A DNA stretch of 64,000 nt from Advenella incenata (GTDB taxonomy: Bacteria > Pseudomonadota > Gammaproteobacteria > Burkholderiales > Burkholderiaceae_B): assembly GCF_004217095.1 (NCBI RefSeq), contig NZ_SHKO01000002.1, positions 372,001 through 436,000 of the forward strand, in the 5' to 3' direction. The translations under genes were made by a program, and so were the position numbers. The notes under the pieces are model-generated. The model saw only the letters and a program-made list of their open reading frames with translations. It had not been told where the DNA came from and made no database searches. Of the stretch, positions 10,763 through 30,532 are shown piece by piece; within the stretch, counting starts at the first letter, position 1; every line of letters begins with the position of its first letter.

Positions 10763-13700
10763 ATGAATACGCCAGAATCGAATCACACATCTCGCACTAT
10801 CGACGATAGCGCGATTGAAAAAAATGAAAGCTTATCGGAAAAAGAGCAATATACATTGCTACTTGATAGGTATCTTGGCGTTGAAGCTCAGTTGGCGAAA
10901 GAGTTAGAATATGGTCGCTTGGTGCGCGGGAAAGTTAATCGATTGAAATCGGAAATAGCTGAAAGACGAAGTGCTCGTAACAAGGCCGAAGAGTTATTAA
11001 GAAAACAAAAGATCAGGATTGAATCGCTAGAAAAAAAGGCAATTAACCTTCAAAATCAGGTCGAATCTGTCAGGGGTACTTTGTCCTTTAGATTGGGATT
11101 TGCTTTAATTCATGGCTTTAAATCATGGAGCGGGTTTTTAAAGTTGCCCGGTACTTTAATTGAAATCCGGCGCGATTCAAGAGCTCGTAGGCAAGATGCT
11201 AAACTGGAAATTTCGGCGGTGTCTAAGGCTGCAATTGGTGCAGGGGATTCAGAAGATCAACTTAGTGAGTTTCAGTCGCAGACTACTCCTGCTCGGGCGC
11301 GCCAAGTGGACGCTAAAAGGATTGAACCACGCCCTAATAGTTTGCAGGACAATCCCTCAATTCAAACTTCAGCTTCGGATCGACAGGAGCTGCTTGGAGC
11401 CAGCACCGCGGTAGGCGATAATTTCATGAGGCCAGATCAAAAAGTTGTTTTTTTTGATGATTCAGAAATGGCCGAAAACACTGCGGTGCAATCCCAGCGG
11501 CCTTCTGATTTGGCTTCTCTGGTTTCAAACTTAAAAGAACTCCGCATTGCTTGCATAATGGATGAGTTTACATATCATTCGTTTAAAAGCGAATGTAATT
11601 TGTTTCAATTGAAACCGGAATCATGGAAAGCACAAATTCTGGAATCGAAGCCAGATATCCTGTTTTTGGAATCAGCATGGAAGGGGGCAGATGAGGCTTG
11701 GGCTAAGAAAGTAAGCGATGCATCATCCGAGGTATTTGAGCTGATTGACTATTGCAAGAATAGTGAGATACCTGTTGTTTTCTGGAATAAGGAAGATCCT
11801 TTTCATTTTGGACGATTTCTACCTATCGCCAAACGTGTAAATATAGTTTTTACTACTGATGTAGATTGTATAGAAAAATATAAATATGAGGTCGGGCACG
11901 ATAACGTATATCTTTTACCATTCGCGGCACAGCCCACAAGTCATAATCCTATAGAGCATTTTGAACGTAAAGACGCGTTCAGCTTTGCTGGTTCGTTCTA
12001 CCTACGTTATCCCGAACGTCAGCGAGATTTCGACAATATTTATGATGTTGGGCAAGAGCTTAAGTCCGTAGATATTTACGATCGAAATTTCGATAATCCA
12101 CATCCTCATCTGAAATTTCCAGAAAAATATGATGCAAGTATCGTCGGATGCTTACCTGTTGAGGAGATCGACAAGGCATATAAAGGCTATAAGTTTGGGA
12201 TTAACATGAATACAATTAAGTACTCGCAAACGATGTTTGCTCGGCGAGTATTTGAATTAATGGCGTCGAACACAATCGTGGTGAGTAATTTCTCAAGAGG
12301 TCTGAGAACCCTATTCGGTGATTTGGTTGTGTCATCAGATGCTAAATCAGAACTTTTCCAACGTCTAAAAGAACTTTGTGAAGATGAGGTCTATTATAGA
12401 AAGTTCAGGCTGGCGGGTCTGAGGAAAGTGTTAGGTGAGCATACGTATAGCCATCGGTTAGCTTTTGTAATATCAAAGATAACTGATCAAAAGCTTTCTC
12501 TGCCACAGCCGAATATCGCAATGGTGGGATTTGCAGATGATACTAATTCACTTGACATCTTGGTATCGAATTACGGGCGGCAAACCTATGCATCCAAAAA
12601 ATTGTATATTGTAGTTTCTAAGGGGGTCTCATATAGTGGAGTCGACGACTCGATAGTGATCTTGAGCGACCCTAAGCTGTTGGTCCCTGCAATTAAGAAC
12701 GGCTTAACAGAGTATGTAGCGCCATTGAGCGAGAACGATTATTATGGGCCTAATTATCTAACAGATTTGACATTAGCAAAGTCTTACGGCCAGTTTGCAG
12801 TAGTGGGGAAGGCGGCACACTATATTTGTGCCAAGGAAGGAGCTATCAGTTTAGCCAACGATGGTGCGCAATATAAAAGCGCTGATTCGTTATGCGCGCG
12901 GTCTTCATTATTCAATGTTGCGGCTTTCGAAGCAATGAATTTGCAGTCGAAAGCAGATATAAATAATGGTACGATTAAAGGGAGCTTTTTTAGTATCGAC
13001 GAATTTAACTATTGTATGGGTATGGAGTCATTAGATCCATCCCGTATCAGTACAATCGTAGACGATATAGACATCGATAATACGGGCTTGGATCTGGAAA
13101 ATACGGTTTATCGAATTGTGGATACAATAGCTCCGAGTTCTCGAGCGGCATCAGTCGACTCGGCAGAAAAACTGCCTGGCATTTCAGCAAAAGAGCTCCA
13201 CTCTTATTTACCCAAGAAGATAGCCAATACGTTGAAGTTTTCTCTCATTGACTCAAAGCTGGCGGTCAAATCTACATTGGCGGCGGATCAACATAAATAT
13301 ATTTATCTCACCAAGCTTTTTACTAGGGCAGAGCTAAATTTCGAGGCCAATAATAGGTTCCAATTGTTATGTGACGGAGACGTTGTAGGTGATGCAAGAA
13401 CAATTTACGTCTTCCTTGATGATAAGGGTGAGAAAATAGAGCACGCAATGAATAAAGTGGGTGCTGCTTACTCCATCACAATTCCCAAAAACTGTAAATC
13501 TATAAAACTAGGCTTTCGTTTTCAAGGGCCAGGAGAATCGAGATTCGAACGCCTGATCTTGGGAGACCTTCGCGAAAAGCCGAGCGTTTTGTTATCGAAC
13601 TCTAAAAATTTAGTATTAACAAAACAGTATCCTGATTATAGCGATCTTTATAAATACGGATTTTTACATTCCCGCATTAAAGAGTACAAAAAGCAAAATC

Positions 13701-15922
13701 TTGATTTCGAAGTATTCCGCGTTTCGGAACACGTGAATATTGAATATCGTGAATTTGAAGGTATCGATATACTAAGCTCCGATTATCAATTCTTGGATAA
13801 TTTGTTACGCCAGGGTACTGTCACAAAGATTATTGTTCATTTTATCGATCATAAGATATGGAACGTACTCAAAAAGTATGCTGGAAAAATCAATATTTTC
13901 ATTTGGGTGCATGGAGCCGATATCCAGCCTTGGTATCGTCGCGCGGTGCGATTTGATAACGCTGGAGCTCTTCAAAAGGCGAAATTGGCGAGTGATGTTT
14001 CGCAGGAAATGTGGTTAGACATCTTTGGCCATTTAGGCGATAAGTTGCATTTGGTTTTTGTTTCTGAGTACTTAGTAAACGAAGTTCAAAATGACTTTGG
14101 GTGCCAGTTTGAAAAATCCGACTACACCGTGATCCATAATTACGTGGACAACACCTTTTTTGCTTATTCAGAAAAAAAACCAGAAGCAAGAGCCAAAATC
14201 CTGTCGGTTCGCCCATATGCCTCTGCTATATATGGCAACGATCTTTCGGTTGAAGCAGTTCAGATGCTCTCTCATGAGCCGTTTTTCAACGAGTTGACGT
14301 TTAAATTTGTTGGGGACGGTCCATTGTTTGATAGCACGCTGGCACCGATTCGGGATTTTGCGAATGTCTCGGTGCATAAGGGTTTCATCACGCAAAGTGA
14401 CATTGCGTCACTTCACAAAGACTACGGTTTATTTCTTGTGCCTTCTCGAATGGACACACAAGGCGTATCCAGGGACGAGGCTATGTCCTCCGGACTCGTG
14501 CCCATCACGACCAGGATTGCTGCCATTCCTGAGTTCGTTGATGAAAGTTGCGCCGTTTTAGCACCTCCAGAAAACGCTAAGACGTTGGCCGACGGAATAA
14601 AAAAATTGTTTCTTGAGCCCGATCTATTTTTGAACATGTCGAAATTAGCCTCAGAGAAAGTCAGAGCAATTTCAGGATTTGATAAAACAATCAAGCGTGA
14701 GATTGAGCTGATTGAAAGTGGTTCGACTGCCTCATTGGATGAGGATAATACAATTTCCAAAACATACAGAGTGGCAATTTATGGTGATGTCAATCTAAAT
14801 CTTACTGATGGATCTGCCATTTGGGCTGTATCTCTCGCAGAAACTTTAGCTGGTATTGAAAATGTCTATGTGACTCTATTTTTAAAATCGAGAATCAAGA
14901 ATATTCATATTATTTCTCCGCTGCTTAATCTTTCCAGTAAAGTGCGGCTGGTCGAGCCTAAGTTGCCAGAAAATAAAGTATTAACACCGAGCGAGGCTTT
15001 GGAAGCGATTGAGAGAGAGGACTCTTATAACGGTTATGACAGTGTGATTCTTCGAGGTATGGATCTTTGTAATACATCCACTGAATTTGCTTTTTTGAAA
15101 AATAAATTATGGACATATATTACCGATTTGCCACAACAACGCGAGCAGTTTTCTAAGCCACAGTTTGAGGTAATGGATCGAATATTCAATTATTCATACA
15201 GGGTGCTGTGTCAGACTAAACAGTTTAAAATGTATGTAGAAGAATTATTTCCACAATCTATAGGAAAGACTGCAATTCTTTCTCCGATGATTCCTAATAG
15301 AAAGGGGAGTGTAATTAGCGGCGCAAAAAGCAAATCTGATGGTGGCGCGGAGCCGCTACGGTTAGTATATGCTGGTAAATTCGCCCCAATGTGGGGCATT
15401 CGAGAATTGTTTGACGTGTTTTCCGCGTTGCGTACTCAAGGGAAGAATGTTGAGCTTCAAATTTTTGGGGACAAAATACATAATCCGCAAGACGACCCGT
15501 CATTTAAGCCAGAAGTGATCAACCATCTGACCAATGACGTCGGTGTCGTGTGGCATAAAGCGGTGAGCCGGGATACACTTTTGTCGGCGTTGCCGGCGAT
15601 GCATATTGGATGGGCTTATAGGCATCAAGAGCTTGAAGCTAATACAAGAGAGCTTTCTACAAAAATACTTGAATATGCATCCATGGGAGTGCCTGTTATT
15701 CTGTCAAGAAACGAAATCAACGAACAAGTATTCGGTAAAGAATATCCATTATTTGTAGAATCTCTTGATGAAGCCATTCATTTAATTAGCTACTATTCAG
15801 AAGATAAAAAGCGATTGGAACGTATTGCTTCGCAAGTGTTGAGTGTTAGTGAAACATTTACTTTTGAAGCGGTTAGGCGTAATCTTTTAGATCAGAAATT
15901 GATTGGTGCAGTTTTTGAATGA
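10763..15922 (+). CDS. Giant multi-domain capsule glycosyltransferase (CgeB-like + GT2-like + two GT-B)
   Basis: A 1719-residue fusion, no close match recognised as a whole. Order: coiled coil (about 45-105); polar linker to 255; CgeB-like glycosyltransferase (258-575, with FLESAWKG at 301-308 and VFWNKEDPFHFGRF at 339-352); GT2-like segment (about 580-750) resembling the domain that often follows CgeB; small beta module (about 845-930); first GT-B unit (about 950-1318, with FVGDGPLFD and the FLVPSRMDTQGVSRDEAMSS donor-site loop at 1224-1243); second GT-B unit (about 1334-1710, with LVYAGKFAPMWGIREL). Several active sites imply one chain adding several sugars of the repeat unit, or acting as a polymerase. 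It has no membrane segment. The CgeB-like part is paralogous to the protein at 34748. The DNA is low in GC. Confidence 0.75.
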   Translation: MNTPESNHTSRTIDDSAIEKNESLSEKEQYTLLLDRYLGVEAQLAKELEYGRLVRGKVNRLKSEIAERRSARNKAEELLRKQKIRIESLEKKAINLQNQVESVRGTLSFRLGFALIHGFKSWSGFLKLPGTLIEIRRDSRARRQDAKLEISAVSKAAIGAGDSEDQLSEFQSQTTPARARQVDAKRIEPRPNSLQDNPSIQTSASDRQELLGASTAVGDNFMRPDQKVVFFDDSEMAENTAVQSQRPSDLASLVSNLKELRIACIMDEFTYHSFKSECNLFQLKPESWKAQILESKPDILFLESAWKGADEAWAKKVSDASSEVFELIDYCKNSEIPVVFWNKEDPFHFGRFLPIAKRVNIVFTTDVDCIEKYKYEVGHDNVYLLPFAAQPTSHNPIEHFERKDAFSFAGSFYLRYPERQRDFDNIYDVGQELKSVDIYDRNFDNPHPHLKFPEKYDASIVGCLPVEEIDKAYKGYKFGINMNTIKYSQTMFARRVFELMASNTIVVSNFSRGLRTLFGDLVVSSDAKSELFQRLKELCEDEVYYRKFRLAGLRKVLGEHTYSHRLAFVISKITDQKLSLPQPNIAMVGFADDTNSLDILVSNYGRQTYASKKLYIVVSKGVSYSGVDDSIVILSDPKLLVPAIKNGLTEYVAPLSENDYYGPNYLTDLTLAKSYGQFAVVGKAAHYICAKEGAISLANDGAQYKSADSLCARSSLFNVAAFEAMNLQSKADINNGTIKGSFFSIDEFNYCMGMESLDPSRISTIVDDIDIDNTGLDLENTVYRIVDTIAPSSRAASVDSAEKLPGISAKELHSYLPKKIANTLKFSLIDSKLAVKSTLAADQHKYIYLTKLFTRAELNFEANNRFQLLCDGDVVGDARTIYVFLDDKGEKIEHAMNKVGAAYSITIPKNCKSIKLGFRFQGPGESRFERLILGDLREKPSVLLSNSKNLVLTKQYPDYSDLYKYGFLHSRIKEYKKQNLDFEVFRVSEHVNIEYREFEGIDILSSDYQFLDNLLRQGTVTKIIVHFIDHKIWNVLKKYAGKINIFIWVHGADIQPWYRRAVRFDNAGALQKAKLASDVSQEMWLDIFGHLGDKLHLVFVSEYLVNEVQNDFGCQFEKSDYTVIHNYVDNTFFAYSEKKPEARAKILSVRPYASAIYGNDLSVEAVQMLSHEPFFNELTFKFVGDGPLFDSTLAPIRDFANVSVHKGFITQSDIASLHKDYGLFLVPSRMDTQGVSRDEAMSSGLVPITTRIAAIPEFVDESCAVLAPPENAKTLADGIKKLFLEPDLFLNMSKLASEKVRAISGFDKTIKREIELIESGSTASLDEDNTISKTYRVAIYGDVNLNLTDGSAIWAVSLAETLAGIENVYVTLFLKSRIKNIHIISPLLNLSSKVRLVEPKLPENKVLTPSEALEAIEREDSYNGYDSVILRGMDLCNTSTEFAFLKNKLWTYITDLPQQREQFSKPQFEVMDRIFNYSYRVLCQTKQFKMYVEELFPQSIGKTAILSPMIPNRKGSVISGAKSKSDGGAEPLRLVYAGKFAPMWGIRELFDVFSALRTQGKNVELQIFGDKIHNPQDDPSFKPEVINHLTNDVGVVWHKAVSRDTLLSALPAMHIGWAYRHQELEANTRELSTKILEYASMGVPVILSRNEINEQVFGKEYPLFVESLDEAIHLISYYSEDKKRLERIASQVLSVSETFTFEAVRRNLLDQKLIGAVFE

Positions 15923-16023
15923 GTGAGTTGTAATTTTGCTTTTCGGGCCGAGTTGGGGAGATCGATTATGTCAGCTTTGGGTAACGTAACTCGTTGTATA
16001 GTAGTTTTGAGCTACGAGTAAAT

Positions 16024-17124: not shown

Positions 17125-18148
17125 ACGTGTTTTGACGATTTACCCAAACTGTAGCCGTGGTGGTATGGCTACTGTGTATAAAAGCCGGGCAACTTCAGAG
17201 AAAAACGTCGCTTTCGATTTTATTTTTTTTAATAATTTCGGAGGCATGTCTGCACTGGCAGCCCTACCAAATGTAAGGGTAAAGATCGTTGATAAAGCAG
17301 ATATCTTGACAATGTTGCCTGGGGAGTTAAGTAGGTCTAAATATGACGAAGTTAGGATTACTACTTTGGCGGAGCTAGTAAAGATAACAGCACATCGGAC
17401 TCGCAAGCTAATTTATGAGTTTCATTCCTCAGATATTGGAGTAATACTTAACGAGTTAGACAATTTGGACCTATCTATATTAGACGAAGTATGGGTTCCG
17501 AGCAAATTTTCGTATGATTTGATATCCCCATTTATTAACTTGACGACCCTAAAAATTGTACCTAATTTAGTAGACACCTCGATTTTTACCCCCCTTGGGA
17601 AATCCTTCTTGTTATGCGATATACCTTCAGAGTCTCGCCCGATAGTCTGGGTTGGAAGATTTGATAAAAGTAAAAATTTTAAAGATTTTATAGAGCTCGT
17701 TTCCAAGCTACCTTGCATTTTTTTTGGAATTATGGTTGTAAGTCTGGAAGATAGTGTAACGCGGCTAGCCGAAGTTATGTATCAAGTACGGCAGAAAAAA
17801 GTCGAACAACGGCTCAAGATATTTTTCAATCTAACCCAACATGATATGGCAACGTTATACCGTGCTACGGTAAATAGCAGGGGATATTTTTGTAGTACTT
17901 CTCTTGCGGAATCTTTCGGTTATGGCGTGTTGGAAGCGGCATTAACTGGACTTCCTGTCATTGCATACCGGCTCGATGCGCTAGAAGAGCACATGCAATA
18001 TGCGTTTAGTATCCAGTTAATTGAGCCTGGGGCGGTGGCAACAATGACCAATTGCATAATAAACAGTGATTGGGAGAAAGAATATGAAGAAAACCAAAAT
18101 GGAATTGCAGACTATCGCCAAAGATTTCGGCAAGACTATTTTTTTTGA
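17108..18148 (+). CDS. Glycosyltransferase, GT4-like
   Basis: A 346-residue GT-B protein. The N-terminal half ends near VPSKFSYDLI and KIVPNLVDTSIF. The C-terminal half has WVGRFDKSKNFKDFIEL, then CSTSLAESFGYGVLEAALTGLPVIAY, a clear GT4 donor-site motif with the Glu pair (AESFGYGVLEA). It probably adds one sugar of the capsule repeat. Its start lies inside the end of the preceding glycosyltransferase gene (17-base overlap), so the two are likely co-translated. The tail after about residue 335 is short. Confidence 0.75.
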   Translation: MKILNKRVLTIYPNCSRGGMATVYKSRATSEKNVAFDFIFFNNFGGMSALAALPNVRVKIVDKADILTMLPGELSRSKYDEVRITTLAELVKITAHRTRKLIYEFHSSDIGVILNELDNLDLSILDEVWVPSKFSYDLISPFINLTTLKIVPNLVDTSIFTPLGKSFLLCDIPSESRPIVWVGRFDKSKNFKDFIELVSKLPCIFFGIMVVSLEDSVTRLAEVMYQVRQKKVEQRLKIFFNLTQHDMATLYRATVNSRGYFCSTSLAESFGYGVLEAALTGLPVIAYRLDALEEHMQYAFSIQLIEPGAVATMTNCIINSDWEKEYEENQNGIADYRQRFRQDYFF

Positions 18149-18304: not shown

Positions 18305-19564
18305 ATGAAGAAACGAATAATTCGATTGAAAGAACAAGAGCCTGACACAGTTAGGGTCTACACACCGTCGGATGACTACAGGAAAATCCGACCTACCTTG
18401 GATCGTAAACTTTCCTATTTGACTACCGTGAACGATGACGGTTTTATGATAACTGGAAACTATGTAAAAGCCCCACAAAAAATATTCTTGTTAGGAGGGT
18501 CTTTTGTTGAGAATATGTATACTTCGCAAAATCATCGTATACACAGCCAAATAGAAAGGCAGTTAATTGCGCAAGGGTACTACGTGGAGGTACTCAATAG
18601 TGGTGTATCGGGGTCGACTTCGCTTAATTTGTTCAATGTGGTGATCAATAAAATTGCACCCTATGCGCCTTGCACGATTGTATTCGTAATTTCTATTAAT
18701 GACGTTCATGCCCTCAGTTTTGATAGCGGGTTTTGGAATAAATATAGATTATTTTCTACGCTAGATCAAACAACTGACTTGGAGCGCGCCCGTCAAAATA
18801 TCTCTGAAAAGAATATTGCTGACCTGACGAAGCTATATATGTCATTGAAGATGTTTTGTGAATTATTTAACATTAATTTATTGATAGCAAATACCCCATA
18901 TATAAGCATTATTGACGACAATTTTTACAAACTGGATCATAGCTACTATGCAAGGATGGTTGCTAGGCGGGAACGGATTTACGGTGCACTATTTGGTTTA
19001 TTTAAACGGCAAGATTTTGATTCGCTAGATTTGCATTTAGCAATGAATGAGAACAAAGAATTATTTTTTGATGACGTTCATACCAACGCGATCGGATCTA
19101 GCGTGGTTGCTAATATTATTGTTCCCAGACTAAAAAAATATGTCAAACGTACGGACGGGAACGCAAGAATCCAAGTATATCGTTGCCTTGATCATGCACA
19201 AAGACTGAGTACCGATGTATTGTGGTCCAGCTCGATGATAATGCCCGAGAATATGGCCGGATTCTCTCATGCGATCATCGAATATCAAGTTGAATGTGGT
19301 TCAGATGTAATCGAAAATAATGCTTTATTTTGTGTGGACTTTGGTGGAATCGAATGCGATAGAGCCGAAGTCGGGTTGAAATATTCGGATACGGTCGGAT
19401 TCTTTAGCTATCTGCAAACAGGGGCGGGTCTTGCGTTAAGTGGGGCACAACAGTTTTCCATTCCGCACTCTTGTAGAGAATTGAGAGTTGGGATTGGCTT
19501 GTGGAAAAGACGGTCGGATATAAAAATATCCGACGTACAGCTTACTTTATTCTTTCATAGTTGA
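18305..19564 (+). CDS. SGNH-type hydrolase/acyltransferase with C-terminal beta module
   Basis: A 419-residue protein. Residues about 57-280 carry SGNH blocks: LLGGSF at 62-67 (Ser66), NSGVSG at 98-103, SIND at 130-133 (Asn132) and FFDDVHTN at 254-261 (Asp256 and His259). Residues about 325-400 form a beta-rich module (ALFCVDF, GFFSYL, SIPHSCRELRVGIGL). This pattern recurs four times in the protein at 27941 and once in the giant glycosyltransferase. There is no signal peptide. It probably adds or removes acyl groups on a cytoplasmic capsule intermediate, the module perhaps binding the glycan; both are inference. The previous gene ends 156 bases upstream. Confidence 0.65.
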   Translation: MKKRIIRLKEQEPDTVRVYTPSDDYRKIRPTLDRKLSYLTTVNDDGFMITGNYVKAPQKIFLLGGSFVENMYTSQNHRIHSQIERQLIAQGYYVEVLNSGVSGSTSLNLFNVVINKIAPYAPCTIVFVISINDVHALSFDSGFWNKYRLFSTLDQTTDLERARQNISEKNIADLTKLYMSLKMFCELFNINLLIANTPYISIIDDNFYKLDHSYYARMVARRERIYGALFGLFKRQDFDSLDLHLAMNENKELFFDDVHTNAIGSSVVANIIVPRLKKYVKRTDGNARIQVYRCLDHAQRLSTDVLWSSSMIMPENMAGFSHAIIEYQVECGSDVIENNALFCVDFGGIECDRAEVGLKYSDTVGFFSYLQTGAGLALSGAQQFSIPHSCRELRVGIGLWKRRSDIKISDVQLTLFFHS

Positions 19565-19726: not shown

Positions 19727-20182
19727 CTATCTTACCATTCCCTGAGAGCCAGCAAACAATTTTTCAGATTCTTGACCGTCTGAATACACTACGCTAATCC
19801 AGTACCAGCACGGTTTGCCACGTCTATTATGGTAATAGAATCCTTCAGTATTGCTTTCTGCGCTAACTGTTGCGAGTAAGACTGCGTTTATGGGATCATC
19901 ACTCACTCGCCCGTATATATTGACAGTGTCTACTCCGTTTACAGGCGGGCTTCTCCATTTTAGCAACGTTTCCCCATTATCATCGAGCGTTCGTGCGTTA
20001 ATGACTGGTAAAGGATCTATTGGGCAATCAGATAAGTTGTTTTTCTCTAAATGGAAGTCTGCTGAACGCGTCGGCTGTGGGTCGGTTTGGCGCTCAGATA
20101 TTTTTCTACGAATACTAATTCGTGCGATTAAAAATACATAAAGAGCGAAGGCTATGCCGAGAATAATAAAAAAATTTCGCAT
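19727..20182 (-). CDS. Membrane-anchored protein with fibronectin-III-like domain
   Basis: A 151-residue protein not recognised as a named family. Residues about 4-22 form one hydrophobic segment followed by RISIRRK, a signal-anchor rather than a cleaved signal. Residues about 57-145 have the spacing of a fibronectin type III domain: LLKWRSPP, VNIYGRVS, then CWYWISVVYSDGQES near the end. Its ATG overlaps the stop of the alpha/beta-hydrolase-like gene by one base (TAATG), so the pair is translationally coupled. It may hold that enzyme or the glycan at the membrane. The pair runs against all neighbouring capsule genes. Confidence 0.55.
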   Translation of the reverse strand: MRNFFIILGIAFALYVFLIARISIRRKISERQTDPQPTRSADFHLEKNNLSDCPIDPLPVINARTLDDNGETLLKWRSPPVNGVDTVNIYGRVSDDPINAVLLATVSAESNTEGFYYHNRRGKPCWYWISVVYSDGQESEKLFAGSQGMVR

Positions 20183-21168
20183 TATCTTCCTCTTATTGAG
20201 ATAATCTCGTTAATCTTATTTGAAGCAAACATTTCATGCCAGGTCAAATCAGTGGTTGCAAGATTGTTGAGTGTTTCTACTAGCGAAGCGAAAGAGGGCG
20301 CGGCATGGCCGCTACCTGTATTCATGATTTTTAGATGTCTTCTCGGGCTAAAATCTCCCCCCACCCTCGTCAATTCCGTAGGTTGGCTAATTCCTAAGTT
20401 GCTGAGGAATGGTTTTAAATGCGCATCAATATGGTGGTGATCAGATGCGTTCTGAAGATAAATTAAATAATTAGAAGAGGACGGATTTTCTTTGGTGTAC
20501 CTTGAGAACAAATCAGTCTCTATTATTCCTTGCAAATAATCTTTCCCTTCCTCGATGCTACCGTCGAAATTCCAAGCATGTCGAAGGTAAGTCGTCACCG
20601 AATCAGGAATGAACTTAAAAATGTCAGTTTGTGGATTCCAAGGTAGAGCTAATGATTCCGAGAAAAAAGAGGAGTAATACATTGCGGCATAACCGCCACC
20701 GGACCCTCCTACGAAAATTAGCCGACTGGGCTTCAGTTGATCTATGATTTTTTTCAACACCTGAACAATTACCGTCTGCGCGTGTATATCGTTAGCACCT
20801 AAGTACCATGCGAGGTTCAGCTTATCGGAGAGGTAAAGACTGGGATCGTTGATGCAAACATAAGATGCATCTACTTGCTCCAACAAATTGTAGCCACTGA
20901 AAGAAGGTAGTCGAAGTCCTTTACGTATTGAATTGGAAGCAGAGGAGTCGGCAGTTGGATTCTGATTCGTCCCGTTCTGTTTTTGTGCGCCGGTAAATGC
21001 AGCGTTAAAAAAAACTATTAATGGCCTGTTATCCATTATTTTTAATAGAAAGTCATACTGTCCTTTCTGATCCGGAAAACTGACGAGCGATGATTGAGCG
21101 GGAGTAATGCAAAAATCGCTGAGTGAATTATATATTGAAGAAGTAGTGTTCCATTTGTTGTTAGTCAT
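20182..21168 (-). CDS. Alpha/beta-hydrolase-like protein, paralogue of the one at 21699
   Basis: A 328-residue serine-hydrolase-like protein. The nucleophile elbow GGSGGGY at 154-160 gives Ser156; Asp243 (LQNASDHHH) and His288 (GSGHAAP) complete a likely triad. It shares ordered motifs with the protein at 21699: DPSLYLSDKLNLAWYLG, NPQTDIFKF, LQN-x-x-D-x-H, HLxxFLxxLGIS and GHxAP. It lacks the YAFYL module of that paralogue; its N-terminus keeps only a short FPDQKGQYDFLL piece. No signal peptide. Function unknown; capsule acyl esterase or transferase is a guess from context. It is coupled to the fibronectin-III-like gene. Confidence 0.6.
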   Translation of the reverse strand: MTNNKWNTTSSIYNSLSDFCITPAQSSLVSFPDQKGQYDFLLKIMDNRPLIVFFNAAFTGAQKQNGTNQNPTADSSASNSIRKGLRLPSFSGYNLLEQVDASYVCINDPSLYLSDKLNLAWYLGANDIHAQTVIVQVLKKIIDQLKPSRLIFVGGSGGGYAAMYYSSFFSESLALPWNPQTDIFKFIPDSVTTYLRHAWNFDGSIEEGKDYLQGIIETDLFSRYTKENPSSSNYLIYLQNASDHHHIDAHLKPFLSNLGISQPTELTRVGGDFSPRRHLKIMNTGSGHAAPSFASLVETLNNLATTDLTWHEMFASNKINEIISIRGR

Positions 21169-21698: not shown

Positions 21699-22898
21699 AT
21701 GAAAATAAGCATTGATTATAAGCGGGGATCCGCAAATTTTACGGCAAATGTCCATGATGAGAGCGGTTCAGAAAACGATGAGTATGCTTTTTACTTAATG
21801 CGAAAGGGAGGCTCCTTACCACCAGTAAAAGTTGCCGTCAGTTGGTATTCGTGCAAAATATCTCATACATTTGTACTTCCGGCGCTGAAAGGACACTATT
21901 ACATTATTTGTTTTAGAAAGGAAAGCGCGAGATCTGGGCAGCAAAGAGTGGTATCAGAGGTTGTTCATGTAGAAAATTTCTCTGATTATACGAAAGCGGA
22001 TGGTATTTTTTTCTATTCCAATGAAGAGCAATTTTTCGCTACAGAGATTTTCGAAAGTGGTACGCATTACGTTACTCGAGAAACAGCTACTCTAGCTTTT
22101 AAAGTGGTGAATAAAAAAACTGATACATGCTTTGTGTCACTTGCCGCTGCAGCAAAGCGTGACGGAGGAAACGAGCCAATATTTACCGGCCTTGGGCTGT
22201 CACGAAAAATGAAATCGAGTTCGATTCTGGTCAGTGATCCGAGCTTGCATTCTGATCCAACTTTGACGCTAGCTTGGTATGCTGGAAATAAGAATTTAAG
22301 ATTACAAGTTGATTTACCAAGATTCGTGAACCATATTGTTTACGCGATCGGGGCCTGTCGCACGATACTCTTTGGATCTTCGGGGGGAGGGTTTGCGACG
22401 CTATTCTATTCAAATAGATTGATTAATTGTATTGGTATCTCGGTAAATCCTCAGGTGGACATCGCTCGTTTTCACGCGCATTTAGTACGCGATTATTTGA
22501 AGGCAGCTTTTAATCATAATAATTTGGAAGTGCCTCTGGACTCTGCACTGCAAGCTTGTGGTATTGAACATAATATAGTGCCTCTCTTTAAGAGGCTCAA
22601 GTTTTTACCCAAAACCTTTTATTTGCAAAATCGGAATGATTGGCATTACGAGGAGCATCTAATGTATTTTCTAAGATCGCTCGGCGTATCCGATGAGTGT
22701 GATCTAAAAGGGGTGGGTTTATATGAAAGCAATTTGTACACTTTAGTTAGTCCAAACTGGGGTGATGGTCACGTGGCTCCCCCAAAAGAGTTGATTATTG
22801 GTTTAATTAATGAGCTGGAGGAAAATGCTTCCTATTGGGAAGCAAATGGATTTGATGTGAATAGAAAACGTGTATCAATATTGCTAAAGAACCATTGA
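21699..22898 (+). CDS. Alpha/beta-hydrolase-like protein with N-terminal YAFYL module
   Basis: A 399-residue protein. Residues about 5-92 form the small beta module (DEYAFYLMRKGG at 27-38, LPALKGHYYIICFRKE at 60-75) shared with the proteins at 1541 and 24491. Residues about 140-375 are the serine-hydrolase-like part: FGSSGGGF at 225-232 (Ser228), Asp314 in LQNRNDWHY and His358 in DGHVAPP. It is a paralogue of the protein at 20182. It has no signal peptide. It heads a plus-strand run with the beta-helix and heparinase-like genes, its stop lying about 10 bases before the next ATG. A role in processing or acylating capsule chains is inferred. Confidence 0.62.
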   Translation: MKISIDYKRGSANFTANVHDESGSENDEYAFYLMRKGGSLPPVKVAVSWYSCKISHTFVLPALKGHYYIICFRKESARSGQQRVVSEVVHVENFSDYTKADGIFFYSNEEQFFATEIFESGTHYVTRETATLAFKVVNKKTDTCFVSLAAAAKRDGGNEPIFTGLGLSRKMKSSSILVSDPSLHSDPTLTLAWYAGNKNLRLQVDLPRFVNHIVYAIGACRTILFGSSGGGFATLFYSNRLINCIGISVNPQVDIARFHAHLVRDYLKAAFNHNNLEVPLDSALQACGIEHNIVPLFKRLKFLPKTFYLQNRNDWHYEEHLMYFLRSLGVSDECDLKGVGLYESNLYTLVSPNWGDGHVAPPKELIIGLINELEENASYWEANGFDVNRKRVSILLKNH

Positions 22899-22908: not shown

Positions 22909-24513
22909 ATGGACGGCAGACGAAGATTTATAACTCGATCACTCGCTTTGATCCTTTTCGAATACGTGGCTCCGCCCCAAGTACTTTCGAAACAGAATAG
23001 TTCTCACAATTTGGCGGCAACTATAGTTGATCCAGCCGGCGATGGAACTACTGATGACACGGAAGCACTAAATTACCTTTTTTCCAAGGCTAACGCAGGG
23101 GAAACAGTGCGCCTGAATCCTAAAAAAATATTTGCGATTAAAGGGCCATTGATTATTCCCCAGGGAATCAACGTGGAAACTCAGGGTTCGGTGTTTAAAA
23201 AAATTCCCACAAATAATGATGAATACGCCATTGAAATAAATAGCGATGTTCGTATAGACGACATTACGTTATTAGTAAAAAACAATACAAACCAGCGTGG
23301 CATCCATCTTCAAGGCTCCTCAATTTCGATAAATAGAGTTTCTGTGAATTCAGAAATCACTGGCAGTAAATCAAAATCTAAGTACGTGGCCCTCACCGTT
23401 GGTACCGAAAATGCAACATGTTCAAATATTGTTGTAGCGGAGGTTTTGATTAAAAATTGGGACTATCCGGTCGCCTGCGTGTTGTTGAAGGATTCGAGTA
23501 TCAAGAAGATCGACATACTTAATTATCGTCGTGGTGTCTATGTCCGGGATTGTGTTAATTGTCAGTTTGATAATGCAACTTTGCAAGGCTTATCACGGAA
23601 CTCAAAAGGTTCTCCCGGAGATAATGGGTTGCTGGTAGAAAGTGTGATTGGCCACAAGAGTGCTCGAGATCTACGGTTTTCTAATTGGCGGATTTCTGAT
23701 TCTGGTGAACATGGTATTCGTTTGGGTGGAGCATACCAGATCGATGCTGTAACATTTACTGGAATTAAAGTATATCGCCCAGGTGTCGGATATCAATCTG
23801 GAGGGGGATGTGGAATAAAAATAAGGGGGTTTAACCCAAAAAAAACACTCCATACTAATATAAATTTGACCAGCATAGATATTTATGACTGTCGCGACAA
23901 GGGGGCGAATTTTTCATCGCTGTTTATCGCATTATGCGATCAGGTCAATGTGGATAGACTGAGAATTAAAAGGGATAAAAATTCGTTTTCAGGACAGTAT
24001 GGAATATCCGTATTAAGTTCCAGCAACATTAACATTGGTAATTCTCAGGTGCTGGATTGCGTAAAACATGCTTTGCGGATATATACAGGAAATGAAAAGG
24101 ATTTTGCACCTCGTTTAGAAAATATATTGATTTCGGATGCTGTTTTAACTAATACTGAAACATCAAATAGTTCTGTTGTTTCGTTCGAGGCGGACACTGT
24201 ACTTTTTACTAACATAAGGATGGAACGATGCAAGATTGAAGGGGGGACCGCCGCGGTAGTTGCTTTGCGACCTAAGGATCGGGGGGGATATGTTGCAAGT
24301 CAATTGCAATTTGCGTATCTTTCGAAGAAAATTAGAAATAAACCGAAAATGCCCGTAATAGGCACCGCTGATTTTTTAATTGATATGTCGGTGGATCTCG
24401 AAAACCTGGATCGAGTGGAAGCAAAAAGCGGGTCTAAGATAAATACGCATACGTCGAAGTACAAGAAAATCACAGGGAAATGGATTAAGCATGGAAGTCA
24501 GGTTAATAAATAA
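22909..24513 (+). CDS. Right-handed beta-helix protein, pectate-lyase-3 type, probable Tat export
   Basis: A 534-residue protein. The N-terminus MDGRRRFITRS followed by a short hydrophobic run fits a twin-arginine signal, so it is probably exported folded to the periplasm. DPAGDGTTDDTEALNYLF, about 35 residues in, is the hallmark of the Pectate_lyase_3 / glycoside hydrolase 28-like superfamily, and the rest is rich in beta-helix rungs (NINIG, ISVLSSSNINI). Catalytic residues cannot be assigned by eye. It could be a polysaccharide lyase, depolymerase or epimerase acting on the capsule. I moved the start from a TTG at 22900 to the ATG at 22909, which has GAGGA just upstream. The last 23 bases overlap the next gene. 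Confidence 0.68.
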   Translation: MDGRRRFITRSLALILFEYVAPPQVLSKQNSSHNLAATIVDPAGDGTTDDTEALNYLFSKANAGETVRLNPKKIFAIKGPLIIPQGINVETQGSVFKKIPTNNDEYAIEINSDVRIDDITLLVKNNTNQRGIHLQGSSISINRVSVNSEITGSKSKSKYVALTVGTENATCSNIVVAEVLIKNWDYPVACVLLKDSSIKKIDILNYRRGVYVRDCVNCQFDNATLQGLSRNSKGSPGDNGLLVESVIGHKSARDLRFSNWRISDSGEHGIRLGGAYQIDAVTFTGIKVYRPGVGYQSGGGCGIKIRGFNPKKTLHTNINLTSIDIYDCRDKGANFSSLFIALCDQVNVDRLRIKRDKNSFSGQYGISVLSSSNINIGNSQVLDCVKHALRIYTGNEKDFAPRLENILISDAVLTNTETSNSSVVSFEADTVLFTNIRMERCKIEGGTAAVVALRPKDRGGYVASQLQFAYLSKKIRNKPKMPVIGTADFLIDMSVDLENLDRVEAKSGSKINTHTSKYKKITGKWIKHGSQVNK

Positions 24514-26404
24514 CGATTTAGTGTTAGACGCTATTGTGGATAATCCCATTAGCAATGATGGAGATGAATATGCATTTTATCTGATGCTTCATAATGAGAA
24601 GGTCAACGAGTTTTGGTATTCTAGTCATCGGCATATACAATTCCCTTTGCCGGATAAGGCAGGGCAATATCATGTGCTTTGTTTCCACCGCAATGTGAAG
24701 CGATCAGAAAAATCGAGAGCAAACTCGAATCGTATATCAGTCACGCCCGCGATCAGGTGGAAGATTCCTCAAGCTGTTGCCATCGGTCGCTACAAACAGT
24801 TGATATATTTCAGGCGAGTGATTTTTGGAGATTATGAATCTCAGAAACGACTAGGATATATTCCGAGAGTCGGAGCTGCTCCTATTCCGCTTCTTGTCCC
24901 AATGAACTATGGGCCTCGTAACGACAGAAATATTGAGTTCGCCTTAAGCTCTTGGAAATTTTTAGCACCTATTTGGAAGGTTTATTTCTCATCGAAAAAG
25001 TATAAATATCTCAAGGAGCTTTATACTTTTTTTCTAGATTGGAATCAGTCTTTAGAAATAAGTAATGGGAAAAATTCTTTTGCTTGGTATGATATGGCAG
25101 TCGGAACACGAGCGATGCATTTGGCTTTATTTTTATACGTGTTAAATGAAGAAAAAATTGAGCTTTCCACAAGAGATAGTCGAATTCTTGGTGATATCAT
25201 TAACCGTCATATTGAATACTTGGAAAACGAAAAAAATTTAAAATATAATAATCATGGAGTATGGCAAATATTAGGCCTCCGATTGCTATATTGGTCTCGG
25301 AATGAAACATCTCAGGAAAAAATAGATTTTTGTGAGTATCAATTGTCTAAGTTGATTGATTTGAACTTTACTGAAGAAAATGTTAGTTCAGAAAATTCTC
25401 CTTTTTATCATAAATATACTGCAGATTTGATTTGCCAAATACCGACACAGCTATTTGCACAAACCCAAGCTAGAATAACTGCTATTCAAGACAAAAAGGA
25501 CGAAATTTCAGCTTGGTTAACGAGCCCAAGCGGTTATTTTTATCTCATCGGCGATTCCGATGACAAAGGAATGCTGTTAAAATCAAAAATCTCTTGTGAC
25601 TTTGTGCAAGATGATATCTGTTATATTTCAAAAGCCTACCTCGGCTCTGGGTACGCGATTGTTAGAACTCACCCAGATACTCCGACGGATGACAATGCTG
25701 CGCTCATCTTTCACGCGACGTCTGCTTCATATTCTCATGCTCATTCAGATAAATTAAGCTTTGTCTTTATACATAAAGGCATTGAACTGATTTCTGATTC
25801 GGGAAAGTATAGTTATGAGAACGACAAATGGAGGAAATATTTTGTTAGTGATCGTGCGCACAACACCGTTGGGTTTACGAACAAAGTATTTATGCCGACG
25901 GATACCAATTTGGGTGATTCTCATATTTTTGAATGCAACTTCGATAATGGAACTTATTATCTTTCCGGGGAAACTAAAAAGAAAGATGTGCTTTTCGAAC
26001 ATAAACGGATACTAAGTTTCAAACCCGACGAATATTTAAATATTGTGGATCACATTATTCATAAATGTGAGGGTGTGGGCGATATTGAGGTCAGGCTTCA
26101 TTTTGGCATTGATATATCTTTGCAAGAAATTAATTCGCGTTTGGTTGCTTTGTTTGACAATAAAATTATCGCTTCAATCGAGCCTGACTCGAGGCTTTTG
26201 CAATACGAAATATATAGCGGTTCGGAAAATCCAATTCTGGGTTGGAGTAGTAGGGCGTATAAGAAAAAAAAGCCAATTAATGCGCTTGTTATGCGATTCG
26301 CACCTGATTTAACCGAAATTCAAACTAAAATCCATCTCAAGGCATCACGGTTCTTCAACGATAATTTATTCGATGATAGAGCCTCTACATTGGGACGAAT
26401 ATAG
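24491..26404 (+). CDS. Heparinase II/III-like protein with N-terminal YAFYL module
   Basis: A 637-residue protein. Residues about 1-85 hold the small beta module (DEYAFYLMLHNE at 25-36, KAGQYHVLCFHRN at 56-68). Residues about 95-385 form the alpha-helical toroid of uronate lyases (NNHGVWQ at 253-259, ENSPFYHKY at 301-309). Residues about 385-630 carry the heparinase II/III beta domain (SYSHAHSDKLSF at 413-424, DSGKYSYEND at 436-445, RAHNTVGF at 455-462). Family members cleave uronate-containing glycans by beta-elimination, which fits a ManNAcA capsule. They are usually periplasmic, but no signal peptide is visible here. The start lies inside the beta-helix gene (23-base overlap). Confidence 0.75.
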   Translation: MEVRLINNDLVLDAIVDNPISNDGDEYAFYLMLHNEKVNEFWYSSHRHIQFPLPDKAGQYHVLCFHRNVKRSEKSRANSNRISVTPAIRWKIPQAVAIGRYKQLIYFRRVIFGDYESQKRLGYIPRVGAAPIPLLVPMNYGPRNDRNIEFALSSWKFLAPIWKVYFSSKKYKYLKELYTFFLDWNQSLEISNGKNSFAWYDMAVGTRAMHLALFLYVLNEEKIELSTRDSRILGDIINRHIEYLENEKNLKYNNHGVWQILGLRLLYWSRNETSQEKIDFCEYQLSKLIDLNFTEENVSSENSPFYHKYTADLICQIPTQLFAQTQARITAIQDKKDEISAWLTSPSGYFYLIGDSDDKGMLLKSKISCDFVQDDICYISKAYLGSGYAIVRTHPDTPTDDNAALIFHATSASYSHAHSDKLSFVFIHKGIELISDSGKYSYENDKWRKYFVSDRAHNTVGFTNKVFMPTDTNLGDSHIFECNFDNGTYYLSGETKKKDVLFEHKRILSFKPDEYLNIVDHIIHKCEGVGDIEVRLHFGIDISLQEINSRLVALFDNKIIASIEPDSRLLQYEIYSGSENPILGWSSRAYKKKKPINALVMRFAPDLTEIQTKIHLKASRFFNDNLFDDRASTLGRI

Positions 26405-26764
26405 AAGAAATATATAAAAGGGAAAATGAAATTCACAAAGATCGGCCTAATCATTTATGAACTTAGATGGTCCTTTCAAATTTAAGGGTACTTTGCTGAG
26501 GAAGCAGTCTGGTTAATAGAGGGGGTTAGATATGTTAGTCTTTGTTCCGTCAGGATTTGCAAGGACCAAATCCGATACAAAGTAGTACGCCGTAGGCCTA
26601 ACGCGGGGCGTCTAATGTGTAATGATTGAAGTAGTAGCCCGACCGAATTAATTGAGCCCGGTAAAACACGATATTATATCAACCGAAGTTTTCTGCTTAG
26701 GCTTCCTTCATTAAGGAACTGAGCAATATATCAAACATGGTTTGTCTCTGGCATTTCTTCAATA
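26405..26764. other. Intergenic region with no recognised feature
   Basis: About 360 bases between the heparinase-like gene and the glycosyltransferase at 26765. I see no open frame, tRNA, strong hairpin or repeat. It may hold a promoter for the glycosyltransferase and the multi-domain gene behind it. Confidence 0.4.
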
Positions 26765-27934
26765 ATGAAAAATCAAGATCTACTAAACGGCGCACGAAGT
26801 CCTGCTGATCTTTTTATAGGTACGGTGTGTGCCCAAGGGATGAAGGATCTCAATCTGCCGTATGTTCTGTCCTATTCTCCAGTGTCGATTCTTAATCCTT
26901 TCCAAAAACTGCTATATTGCAGCGCGACAGAGGCTGGGTACGCAATTGTGCCTACGGCAAAATTTCATGATTTAGGTATTGTTAACTGGAAGAATCGTTC
27001 GGTAATACATTTGCATTGGCTTGCTTCCGTTCTGAAAAATTGTAAGAGCAGCGAACATGCTGAATTTTGTGTGCGCGAATTTGAAAAGTTGTTGGTGGAA
27101 TGGCGCTCTCGTGGGCATAAACTACTATGGACTATGCATAATTTGCTACCACATGATCATTCTTTTACTGACGCAGAAATTAGTTTGCGCGAAGTGACCA
27201 TTCGGCATTCTAATGCCATTCATGTGTTATCCAAGGATTCGGTGGAGCTCGCGAACGACATATATTATGTGCCGGAACATAAAACATTTCACGTGCCACA
27301 TCCTTCTTATGAAGGTTGGTATCCAAATATTGTAGATCTTGCTACCGCTCGTCAATATTTGGACCTAAATTTTAAAGAATTCGTATTTCTCGCATTTGGT
27401 TCCATTCAAAGATACAAAGGTATTGTGGAACTAATCGAAGCTTTTAAGATTCTTGAGCGCGAAAACCGAGATCGTTCGCTGCGATTGATAATTTCAGGAA
27501 AACCTGCTGACGCCAATTATATGAATGAGATCATTGAGTCGATTGGAGCCGGTTCGAACATAAATCTTATCCCGAATGCGCTTGAGGATAGGGATATACA
27601 AGTCTTGTTTAACGCTGCCGACGTGGTGGTCGCTCCCTATTCAAAGACACTTAACTCTGGAATCTCGTTATTAGCGGCTACTTTTATGAAAGAGTTGGTA
27701 GCGCCATATTCACCAGGGATAACTCAAACTTACGCAGCAGATACTACGTTGTTATATACCGGTAAGCCGGGTGATCAATTGGTAGATTCACTTAGGAGAT
27801 CGATTAATTACAAAATTTCATCTGTGAAATTTTCAGAAATATTAAAACTTCATAATCCGAATGTTGTTTCAAAAAAGTTTTTCGATGCAATCACGACTTA
27901 TGTACTGAAGACTGATGGAGAAAATTCTGTCTAA
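26765..27934 (+). CDS. Glycosyltransferase, GT-B fold
   Basis: A 389-residue protein. The N-terminal half has VIHLHWLASVL, LLWTMHNLLPHD and AIHVLSKDSVEL, a pattern of GT4-like mannosyl- and glucuronosyl-transferases. The C-terminal half has FLAFGSIQRYKGIVELIEAFKIL, then VVVAPYSKTLNSGISLLAAT for the donor site. It probably adds one sugar of the capsule repeat, and mannose is possible given manC downstream. It ends six bases before the next gene, so the two are co-transcribed. Codon use is AT-rich like its neighbours. Confidence 0.78.
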   Translation: MKNQDLLNGARSPADLFIGTVCAQGMKDLNLPYVLSYSPVSILNPFQKLLYCSATEAGYAIVPTAKFHDLGIVNWKNRSVIHLHWLASVLKNCKSSEHAEFCVREFEKLLVEWRSRGHKLLWTMHNLLPHDHSFTDAEISLREVTIRHSNAIHVLSKDSVELANDIYYVPEHKTFHVPHPSYEGWYPNIVDLATARQYLDLNFKEFVFLAFGSIQRYKGIVELIEAFKILERENRDRSLRLIISGKPADANYMNEIIESIGAGSNINLIPNALEDRDIQVLFNAADVVVAPYSKTLNSGISLLAATFMKELVAPYSPGITQTYAADTTLLYTGKPGDQLVDSLRRSINYKISSVKFSEILKLHNPNVVSKKFFDAITTYVLKTDGENSV

Positions 27935-27940
27935 GAGAAT

Positions 27941-30532
27941 ATGCTTATGAATACTAGAGCTCAACAGCGTTTGGATAATCCTTTAGCAAGTAAAGAATTT
28001 TCTGTCTGTCAAGGCGACAGGCTTAGGATTCGCGTGACCGCTATTTCAAAAAAAGCAATTTCAAGTCAGCGTGGGCTTTTGTGTCGCATTCTTTTTTTTG
28101 ATGAAAAATCAGAATTAATCAGAAGTAATTATGAAGGCACTTTTTCATCTGCGGTGTATGGCCAATTCATTTATATTGCTTCCACTGCAACCTCAAAATG
28201 CGGAGACTGGGCGAAAAGAGCAATCGTAGCCCCACCTCTTGCAGAGAAGGTTCGGCTCGTTATTCTTGAAGGCGAAGCGCGCCTCGACGAAATCGAGAAG
28301 ATAACGGACATCCAATGCGTTAGTGGTCACCTACCTATTTTGGAGTCGAAATTACCGATTGCGGAGCAACTACCAACGAAGTTGACTTTACGGTTCACGG
28401 AAAAGGTCTTGGATAAAGATACCGTGCTGCTATCTGTTAGCTATCTAGACGAGGATGAGTGTGAAATCGCTGGCCCATATTCAGGCTTTGCATTTTCACG
28501 AAGGTACGGATATTTTAAGTATATTCACCGAACCTTCTTATCCAATATTTTTGAGATTTGTCTTTATGCACCAGCACGGACTCGTTTTGTACAAATTAGA
28601 GTTCATCCGATAAAAGGTGGGAGTACTATAGACTGTGTTGGAAGTCCGAAATTAGAAGTGTATTTGTCATATAAAAGAGCAGTCAATGACGTAAGCTGGC
28701 GTCGCATACATGATAGTGAGATGATCGAACTTCCGCTTCCGTATAACAAGGAACAAGTAAAAATTTGCAAACTGCTATTGACGTATATCGCGCATAGTAA
28801 AGACAACGCGACAGGCTTCGAGTGCCGATTCTTGTGTGAACGTAGACAGCCGGTCATCAACGCTAGTCCCTCTGGTGTGAGTGGATCATTTCAATACTTA
28901 TCTAGCACCGATAATAAGATAAATTCCCATGCGGTTAATTTTTTCGTGCCAGCTTCGGCAAAGTACGTTCAATTGCATTTCAGAGTATCAAACAATTCAG
29001 TACTTTATTTACATTCGGATGTGGATCTGCGAAGAAACACGGACAAATCCTCACATAGGTATGTATTAGCAAGGTCGGTAGGAAGTCAATCGTTAAATTT
29101 AGAACTCAATGAACTTTGGAGTTCATTGTTGGTGTTGTCGATTCGATCGGGAACCAATTCGTCTGAGCATTCTTGCGGAGAAGCCAGCTTATCCTTCTAC
29201 GACAGTAACGGCGGACTCGTACCCGTATCGTTTGAAGATCAAAAAGTAATTTTCGGACAGATTAGTCAATTTAATGAAAGCACTTGTAGATTATTCTTAT
29301 GCTTAGACAACATTAACAAGACAAAAGACAAAACCACTAGATTCATTGCTCAACTTACCCCGCCGCGAAAAGCTGTACGCTTGACCATTAATGTCAATAT
29401 TCAAGCCAATGATTCCCAAATAAAAATTTCGGCGAAAATTTCGGCTTTTGACCAACTTATTGTTCCTCGCCTTGTGTCTGATTCCTATCGTCTGATTGAA
29501 CATAACAAAAATATGCCAGAATACGCTGTTAAAGCCCTTCTCAAGGGCTTAGTGGCTGAGTTCCCTCAGGATCCATCAATGCTTGGATTCGCTATGAATA
29601 AATATTATGAACTAGGGGATCTCGGAGCCGCTAATAATGTGGCATCGCATATTTTGAACGACGTAAGCCCTGCTGCGCTGCGTTACCAAGCGCGGCTTAT
29701 TTCGTCTGAAGTCAACTTGCTCCGGAACTCTTTTGTATCCGCACGAGAAAACTTCACCTATCAAGAAAAGAACTTGGTCCGTGAATACTCAGATAATTTA
29801 ACGATAGCGCTCCTCATCGGTGGAGGTATATTAGATAGCTCCACATTAGACCCGTTTAGCTATTTATCTGCGCGCTATCCTAGCCGCGTATTATCTCAAA
29901 AAAAAGGACTTGTGATAACGCCATTGGGCTTCCCTGGAAGAGGCGAGACGGGTGATCCTTGGGAAGTGCGTAGTTCTAACGGCTTTAAGCATTATCTCCT
30001 CAACTGCATTTCATCTACGGATCTTGTCACCATCACGAAAGTTAATCAGATTGATTTTTCGGTGTTGCTTTGTAGGGAAATTTTGAAAATTGAGAGGCCG
30101 ACTGTTATCCATTGCGTTATTCGTGGTGAGGACTACTGCACTGTAACCGTTGCTCTAGCAGTCGCTCGGAGTCTCTCGGTTCCTCTTGTGCTAGAGTTTT
30201 TAGATACCTACATCTCTGATGGTGCGTCAGAGCAAAATGACGGCTCCAAGATAGCCGATGCTATCGTAACCCGACAATTTGTTTGTGCTGCAGCGGCAGA
30301 TGTGATCATTACTAAATCTGAGGGACTGAAGCGTTGTTTATCATCGAATGAGATTGACTCTGAGAAAATTTTTGTAATTCCGGCTCTTGAATTAAATGGC
30401 TCCACTGTCTCGCCTCCTGACTCCCAACGGAATGAGTACCAAGAAGTATATCTTCAAGCTTATAACTATTTGTTCATCGAACTGCCAAAACGACAGGGGG
30501 CGGGCGCGGCAAACTCTGCCTGTGCATTGTAA
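27941..30532 (+). CDS. Protein with four tandem beta modules and a half glycosyltransferase
   Basis: An 863-residue protein, unrecognised as a whole. Four beta-rich modules (about 20-120, 145-240, 260-365, 385-495) repeat a pattern of LLCRILFFDE-type strand, GxFxYI turn and a V-R-L-x-I-type strand. A helical, TPR-like part follows (about 515-615). Residues about 645-820 look like the N-terminal half of a GT-B enzyme (GLVITPLGFPGRGETGDPW, PTVIHCVIRGEDYCTVTVALA, ADVIITKSEGLKRCL, EKIFVIPALE). The nucleotide-sugar-binding half expected after IFVIP is missing; only about 45 residues remain. It may be a decayed enzyme, or a chain-length or scaffold protein. ATGs at 27941 and 27947 are both possible. 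Confidence 0.55.
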   Translation: MLMNTRAQQRLDNPLASKEFSVCQGDRLRIRVTAISKKAISSQRGLLCRILFFDEKSELIRSNYEGTFSSAVYGQFIYIASTATSKCGDWAKRAIVAPPLAEKVRLVILEGEARLDEIEKITDIQCVSGHLPILESKLPIAEQLPTKLTLRFTEKVLDKDTVLLSVSYLDEDECEIAGPYSGFAFSRRYGYFKYIHRTFLSNIFEICLYAPARTRFVQIRVHPIKGGSTIDCVGSPKLEVYLSYKRAVNDVSWRRIHDSEMIELPLPYNKEQVKICKLLLTYIAHSKDNATGFECRFLCERRQPVINASPSGVSGSFQYLSSTDNKINSHAVNFFVPASAKYVQLHFRVSNNSVLYLHSDVDLRRNTDKSSHRYVLARSVGSQSLNLELNELWSSLLVLSIRSGTNSSEHSCGEASLSFYDSNGGLVPVSFEDQKVIFGQISQFNESTCRLFLCLDNINKTKDKTTRFIAQLTPPRKAVRLTINVNIQANDSQIKISAKISAFDQLIVPRLVSDSYRLIEHNKNMPEYAVKALLKGLVAEFPQDPSMLGFAMNKYYELGDLGAANNVASHILNDVSPAALRYQARLISSEVNLLRNSFVSARENFTYQEKNLVREYSDNLTIALLIGGGILDSSTLDPFSYLSARYPSRVLSQKKGLVITPLGFPGRGETGDPWEVRSSNGFKHYLLNCISSTDLVTITKVNQIDFSVLLCREILKIERPTVIHCVIRGEDYCTVTVALAVARSLSVPLVLEFLDTYISDGASEQNDGSKIADAIVTRQFVCAAAADVIITKSEGLKRCLSSNEIDSEKIFVIPALELNGSTVSPPDSQRNEYQEVYLQAYNYLFIELPKRQGAGAANSACAL

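Follow-up and report, generated by a model that had tools for sequence, protein, structure and literature searches.

A recurring beta-sandwich module, predicted to resemble carbohydrate-binding modules, on capsule or exopolysaccharide enzymes of Advenella incenata and other bacteria

Introduction

Four described systems come closest to the module considered here. AlgX, an alginate O-acetyltransferase, combines an SGNH-like domain with a C-terminal carbohydrate-binding module (CBM; PMC4148444). The teichoic acid glycosyltransferase TarS of S. aureus carries stacked CBMs which are reported to trimerise the enzyme and aid its processivity (PMC5156392). A CBM is also described on O-polysaccharide ABC transporters, and one is predicted in a chain terminator (PMC11231755). 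The fourth system, Asp3/Gap3, is a stand-alone subunit of the Gram-positive protein-export (accessory Sec) complex.

The locus compared with these systems is found in Advenella incenata (GCF_004217095.1), in a window of 64,000 nt covering positions 372,001-436,000 of the forward strand of NZ_SHKO01000002.1, with the segment 10,763-30,532 of the window in focus. Three proteins are concerned, a 1719-aa giant glycosyltransferase (GT; gene at 10763), a 419-aa SGNH protein (18305) and an 863-aa tandem protein (27941), and all three open frames are present. A preliminary description had proposed six copies of one module in these proteins, with the look of a glycan-binding beta-sandwich and perhaps private to this capsule.

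The SGNH protein is like AlgX in that an SGNH domain is followed by a C-terminal, predicted beta-sandwich in a polysaccharide locus, and the C-terminal part of AlgX (4knc_A residues 362-463) matches the modelled fold of the module at Z 6.0. Unlike AlgX, it lacks a signal peptide by eye and no sequence relation was detected in a profile search of the PDB. The tandem protein is like TarS in placing tandem CBM-like beta-sandwich units on a glycosyltransferase; the TarS units are C-terminal, have an immunoglobulin-like starch-binding fold and sit on an active GT, whereas the units at 27941 are N-terminal, sit on a truncated GT and have no sequence match to those of TarS. As with Wzt of the O-polysaccharide ABC transporters, a putative CBM is set in an ABC-transporter-dependent glycan system, but the Wzt CBM is borne by the transporter ATPase and acts as a checkpoint for terminated chains, while the module described here is found on biosynthetic enzymes. 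Asp3/Gap3 is among the closest folds (5vae_B at Z 7.6, below the caution line of 8) and has no sequence match. We regard the module as an uncatalogued branch of a known kind, the CBM-like accessory modules on glycan-making enzymes.

As a separate observation, a weak Asp2-like hydrolase is encoded at 20182-21168 on the minus strand (Pfam Asp2 E 6.5e-4, NCBIfam E 5e-4, both under the cut-off). It sits in the same locus as the module whose modelled fold resembles Asp3.

Results and Discussion

Features of the locus

The features are collected in Table 1, where M1 to M4 are the units of the tandem protein and SG is the copy of the SGNH protein. The catalytic parts alone were recognised when eight window proteins were scanned against Pfam and NCBIfam, and the module part received no domain.

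Table 1. Positions in the window of the module copies and of the domains associated with them
Feature	Position	Strand	Evidence or remark
Segment 813-938 of the giant GT, beta-rich, between two GT parts	13199..13576	+	conserved; membership of the module family unproven
SGNH/GDSL catalytic domain, residues 60-271	18482..19117	+	Lipase_GDSL_2 E 8.4e-6; Ser66, Asn132, D257-V-H259
SG module copy at the C-terminus, residues about 310-417	19232..19555	+	outside-genus profile E 0.0013, ortholog 6.7e-6; hhalign 88%, E 3.1e-6
Partner glycosyltransferase, 389 aa, directly upstream of the module protein gene	26765..27934	+	Glycos_transf_1 E 2.3e-11
Module copy M1, residues about 15-130 of the 863-aa protein	27983..28330	+	outside-genus profile E 2.7e-9; hhalign against 40-copy profile 98.9%
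Module copy M2, residues 133-243	28337..28669	+	outside-genus profile E 3.7e-10; AlphaFold2 model
Probable copy M3, residues about 250-369, with G-S-F-Q-Y	28688..29047	+	outside-genus profile E 0.013; hhalign 67%, 40.6%
Possible divergent copy M4, residues about 372-508	29054..29464	+	E 2.3-2.4 in register; hhalign 22.6%, 12.6%; ortholog alignment
Helical linker, residues about 510-600	29468..29740	+	helical by eye; kept in the window protein and four same-genus orthologs; without Pfam match
N-terminal half of a GT4-type domain, residues 677-815	29969..30385	+	TIGR04063 E 4.7e-5; Glyco_trans_4_4 E 0.0095

Module copies in the tandem and SGNH proteins

A profile seeded with M1 and M2 matched 10 of 299 relatives, the own genome and genus included; some of the copies lie elsewhere in the family, outside the genus. 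Thirteen copies from other genera or families were assembled into an outside-genus profile, from which two loci (L052 and L057, duplicates of L070 and L072) and a third in which only a weak side frame was seen (L065) were kept out. SG was absent from every profile used to gather these thirteen copies, as its domain reached E 1.4 in the first iteration and was not included. We then searched 1181 frames, taken from the window and from eight loci of the same genus, with the outside-genus profile. Only M1, M2, M3, SG and their orthologs were observed at E < 1, with the exception of M3 of the ortholog in the same-genus genome G009 (E 21), and the next unrelated match was found at E 4.2. M1, M2, M3 and SG are thus matched by a profile free of the window and its genus; M4 lies in register at E 2.3-2.4 and the segment of the giant GT gave no match. 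The scan was repeated with stop-to-stop frames and the result was the same.

Profile alignment shows M1 and M2 to be homologous (hhalign 93.6%, E 2.2e-7). The 40-copy profile was collected with a search profile (A6) that holds SG, M1 and M2, so that its values for these three are not independent; the independent tests are both outside-genus scans and, for SG, a decoy-controlled hhalign against 17 copies. The proposed reuse of a beta-sandwich is therefore borne out for the tandem and SGNH proteins by these profile statistics together with the predicted fold of M2, with one copy in the SGNH protein and, in the tandem protein, M1 and M2 sure, M3 probable and M4 possible.

The sequence pattern from which the copies had been proposed (F-D, G-x-F-x-Y and V-x-L) was recovered in part. 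Literal G-x-[FY]-x-Y occurs eight times in window frames of at least 150 aa, four of them being M1, M2, M3 and SG, and is lacking in M4 and the GT segment. A compound motif (D, G-x-[FY]-x-[YF], P, V/I/L-x-V/I/L) was found in three places only, namely SG, M1 and M2 (M2 from two starts). In 200 shuffles it was matched 0.6 times on average and 4 times at most, so that the motif by itself is weak and the case rests on the profiles.

Architecture of the tandem protein

The 863-aa protein covers only positions 50-187 of the 397 positions of the TIGR04063 profile. Of the two Rossmann halves that make an active GT4, the N-terminal half alone matches and the C-terminal donor-binding half is absent. Orthologs with clear E-values were found in four genomes of the same genus. 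In the window protein and in these four, M4 is the unit which adjoins the helical part. The number of units differs, since three of the four orthologs, from three species, carry two (M1 and M4 only), and apparently four are present in the window protein and in the G009 ortholog. The latter (L011:17585-19474) keeps its four units and stops before the half GT, and this sequence suggests that the half GT may be dispensable.

The G009 ortholog is the closest one and is 36% identical over residues 4-507, nearly the whole module region. In the same comparison the giant GT is 70% and the SGNH protein 58% identical, which argues that the module protein (27941-30532) evolves much faster than its neighbours. 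When 21 modules were placed in a tree, M1 and M2 of the window paired with their counterparts in the G009 ortholog; the inner branches are mostly open or weak and carry long-branch warnings, and the tree shows nothing beyond this pairing. No relative of the tandem protein was found in the viral contigs and plasmids searched, and its first 553 residues gave nothing better than E 1.6 against PDB sequences.

The SGNH protein

The residues characteristic of the SGNH superfamily are present in the 18305 protein, with GGSF at 64 (containing Ser66), SIND at 130 (containing Asn132) and DDVH at 256. By analogy with the SGNH family, we take Ser66, Asn132 and D257-V-H259 to be the catalytic residues. The Lipase_GDSL_2 match at residues 63-264 scores 26.8 bits, which is under the curated cut-off of 32.9 bits. 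In other genera, two homologs of the SGNH protein (L033 and L034) end without the module, and the module is therefore detachable from this enzyme.

Distribution of the module

Within the family, 13 of the 220 genomes surveyed carry the module; they belong to five of 43 genera, the carriers known by name being Bordetella and Achromobacter species. At class level it was found in 2 of 369 genomes and at phylum level in 4 of 299, and all three surveys count the window's own genome. In G584, the other carrier at class level, a clear copy (E 2.4e-14, stop-to-stop frames) heads a longer protein. In a genus belonging to another class, the module was found in 43 of 119 relatives of the genome G811. In the two module proteins of this group that were examined (L075 and L078), the C-terminal part is heparinase II/III-like, with the match in L078 lying under the Pfam cut-off. 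No relative of the heparinase-type module protein was found in the plasmids searched. Within the family, the module also stands at the head of GT4 proteins whose GT domain is intact (L053, L054 and L056).

The spread over GT4, SGNH and heparinase-like partners, together with the copies elsewhere, shows that the domain is mobile. The idea that it is private to this capsule was wrong, as it is ruled out by the presence of the module in other genera and another class. With its boundary now given, the domain serves as a marker of capsule enzymes in several genera of the Alcaligenaceae and in an unrelated class.

Beside the module protein of G584, we noticed a short frame (L065:1794-2411, minus strand) with a G-E-Y-Y-R-Y-L hairpin (E 0.056). 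To judge from its sequence, it is perhaps another divergent copy of the module.

The partner glycosyltransferase

Of the 15 loci that could be assessed, 12 have a homolog of the partner GT directly next to the module/GT gene and on its strand, downstream of it in L056; the other three (L052, L053 and L054) lack such a neighbour. This count leaves out L070 and L072, which are duplicates, L114 and L117, which are cut by the locus edge, and two SGNH proteins, which have another architecture. The analysis thereby singles out a conserved two-gene unit of a GT and a module-bearing truncated GT.

An E-x7-E pair is expected in retaining GT4 enzymes. Most members of the partner family have an APY..TLNSG motif and no E-x7-E pair was seen by eye; from the missing pair, the family may be inverting. 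A gene that follows at 31028 looks, by eye, like a mannose-1-phosphate guanylyltransferase, which would make GDP-mannose a plausible donor.

Predicted fold and database matches

M2 was modelled with AlphaFold2 from nine alignment rows, drawn from the module's own copies here and from five named loci, as an eight-strand beta-sandwich with a pLDDT of 82.7 and a pTM of 0.77; the fold of the other copies is assigned by homology only. Foldseek gave no match of this model in the PDB at E <=0.001. In VIA-align, the top Z of 7.6 was shared by 5w6h_A, which is a domain of a phage tailspike, and by Asp3 (5vae_B; 89 residues, 2.5 A), and all matches stay at this value or less, in the range below 8 where a match may reflect only a common arrangement. 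Further Asp3/Gap3 chains follow at Z 7.3 (6lnw_C) and Z 6.6 (6oyc_C), and CBMs are represented by a Ruminococcus cellulosomal CBM (5fu3_B, Z 6.8) and a CBM35 (2w47_A, Z 5.7). Non-lectins were also observed among the matches, namely an ephrin-receptor domain (Z 7.1) and GOLD domains. The predicted M2 fold thus resembles CBMs, as had been suggested from the sequence, among other beta-sandwiches. The Z values are middling, and we take the modelled fold to be a common beta-sandwich arrangement which is compatible with a CBM and not diagnostic of one.

The module is not in the sequence libraries searched (Pfam, PHROG and PDB sequence families), none of which gave a match. None of the 16 members of A6 matches a Pfam CBM at E <=0.1, and one Pfam model, Reelin_subrepeat-B, touches 1 of the 16 at E 0.054. 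Against PDB sequences, among which the Asp3 chains are expected, the only match of the A6 profile was an unrelated regulator (E 0.95), and there was no sequence relation to Asp3. No sugar-binding residues were recognised in the module. No description recognised as this module was found in the literature searched, which does not prove its absence.

Proposed function

The results above establish that the copies are homologous and that they have moved between different catalytic partners, and they give a predicted fold and the conserved pairing of the tandem protein with one partner GT. They point to an accessory, mobile beta-sandwich some 100-115 residues long, presumably CBM-like, which occurs singly or in tandem on capsule or exopolysaccharide enzymes; its carriers are glycosyltransferases of the GT4 type, truncated GTs, an SGNH enzyme and heparinase II/III-like proteins. 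Such a module is probably a handle for the growing sugar chain or for partner enzymes. In the SGNH enzyme, as in AlgX, it would keep the capsule chain close to the active site. The 27941 protein is without the donor-binding half of its GT and is read as a non-catalytic subunit, whose tandem modules would hold the nascent chain and/or scaffold the partner GT. On the combined grounds of sequence, model and analogy, we favour the view that the CBM-like domain is a tether, either between the capsule enzymes and the nascent glycan or among the enzymes, and consider it somewhat better than even. Should the modules bind the nascent polymer, this would account for the way in which cytoplasmic capsule enzymes remain on a single chain; should they bind one another, they would offer a handle on the assembly of such enzyme complexes.

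As a role of the module, protein-protein assembly is equally live beside the putative glycan binding. The stricter alternative, in which the modules are protein-protein scaffolds that assemble capsule enzymes, like Asp3 or the stacked CBMs of TarS, and are not glycan binders, is a serious though less probable one. The three Asp3/Gap3 chains listed above are among the nearest folds of M2, and Asp3 is reported to bind both Asp1 and Asp2 in a complex (PMC5578698); the CBM-like domains of TarS are reported to trimerise their enzyme (PMC5156392). The tandem protein has, moreover, lost half of its GT domain yet still stands beside one GT gene. Against this, CBMs appear in the same fold list at similar Z, and a polysaccharide, more than a shared protein partner, is the common denominator of GTs, an SGNH enzyme and heparinase-like carriers.

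The tethering view can be extended to a more speculative form, which we hold to be rather unlikely in full. Here the module-bearing half-GTs would be a non-catalytic, obligate clamp for the adjacent GT, with the tandem modules gripping the growing capsule chain during sugar addition by the partner; gain and loss of units would retune the machine for each capsule, and the SGNH copy would recognise the same chain.

The segment of the giant glycosyltransferase

The 1719-aa protein has GT-type regions and a DUF3880 match in Pfam/NCBIfam. Its segment 813-938, which includes the stretch at 845-930 once counted among the six copies, was found in 17 of 200 family genomes and, being conserved between GT parts, is a real domain of its own. 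No module profile matched it, the outside-genus profile of 13 copies included (1181 frames), and this part of the original proposal was not supported.

The segment could still be a member of a single family with all the other copies, one that has diverged past sequence detection, and this we consider doubtful. In hhalign against the module it scored 23.1, above the maximum of 16.0 for shuffled decoys, and it is overlapped by the six best of 48 windows along the GT alignment. By eye, the segment also has in common with the module a strand that ends in F-x-D-x-x-G and another that reads IP-x-x-C/A-x-x-V/I-R/K. The hhalign values are nevertheless only 5-13%, often over just 13 aligned columns, and were 9.1% in the run with 29 shuffled decoys and one reversed decoy, where SG (88%), M3 (67%) and M4 (22.6%) ranked above it. 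By eye, about 20 residues are missing from the segment, the hallmark G-x-F-x-Y hairpin among them, and single-sequence AlphaFold2 of the segment alone gave an uninformative model (pLDDT 43.7). We therefore read it as a different beta-rich segment, at best very distantly related to the module, and any such relation is unproven.

The same decoy-controlled run bears on whether SG and the tandem copies could be generic beta-sandwiches that converged without common descent. Weak matches come easily for short beta-rich modules with alternating hydrophobics and the best Z of M2 to solved folds is middling, but this explanation is already disfavoured and very improbable, because SG aligned over 85 columns with a 17-copy family profile built without it (score 37.3, against at most 17.5 for the 29 column-shuffled decoys and 9.9 for the reversed profile; values in Table 1) and the outside-genus profile ranks SG and its ortholog over all unrelated frames.

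A second N-terminal module

A different N-terminal beta module, with a YAFYLM or FACYLM pattern, was seen by eye at the head of the hydrolase-like and heparinase II/III proteins of the window (21699-22898 and 24491-26404). By eye, it also heads the SGNH homolog L033 (= L055:708-2000), which is without the C-terminal module. The two module types seem, by eye, to swap on the same enzyme.
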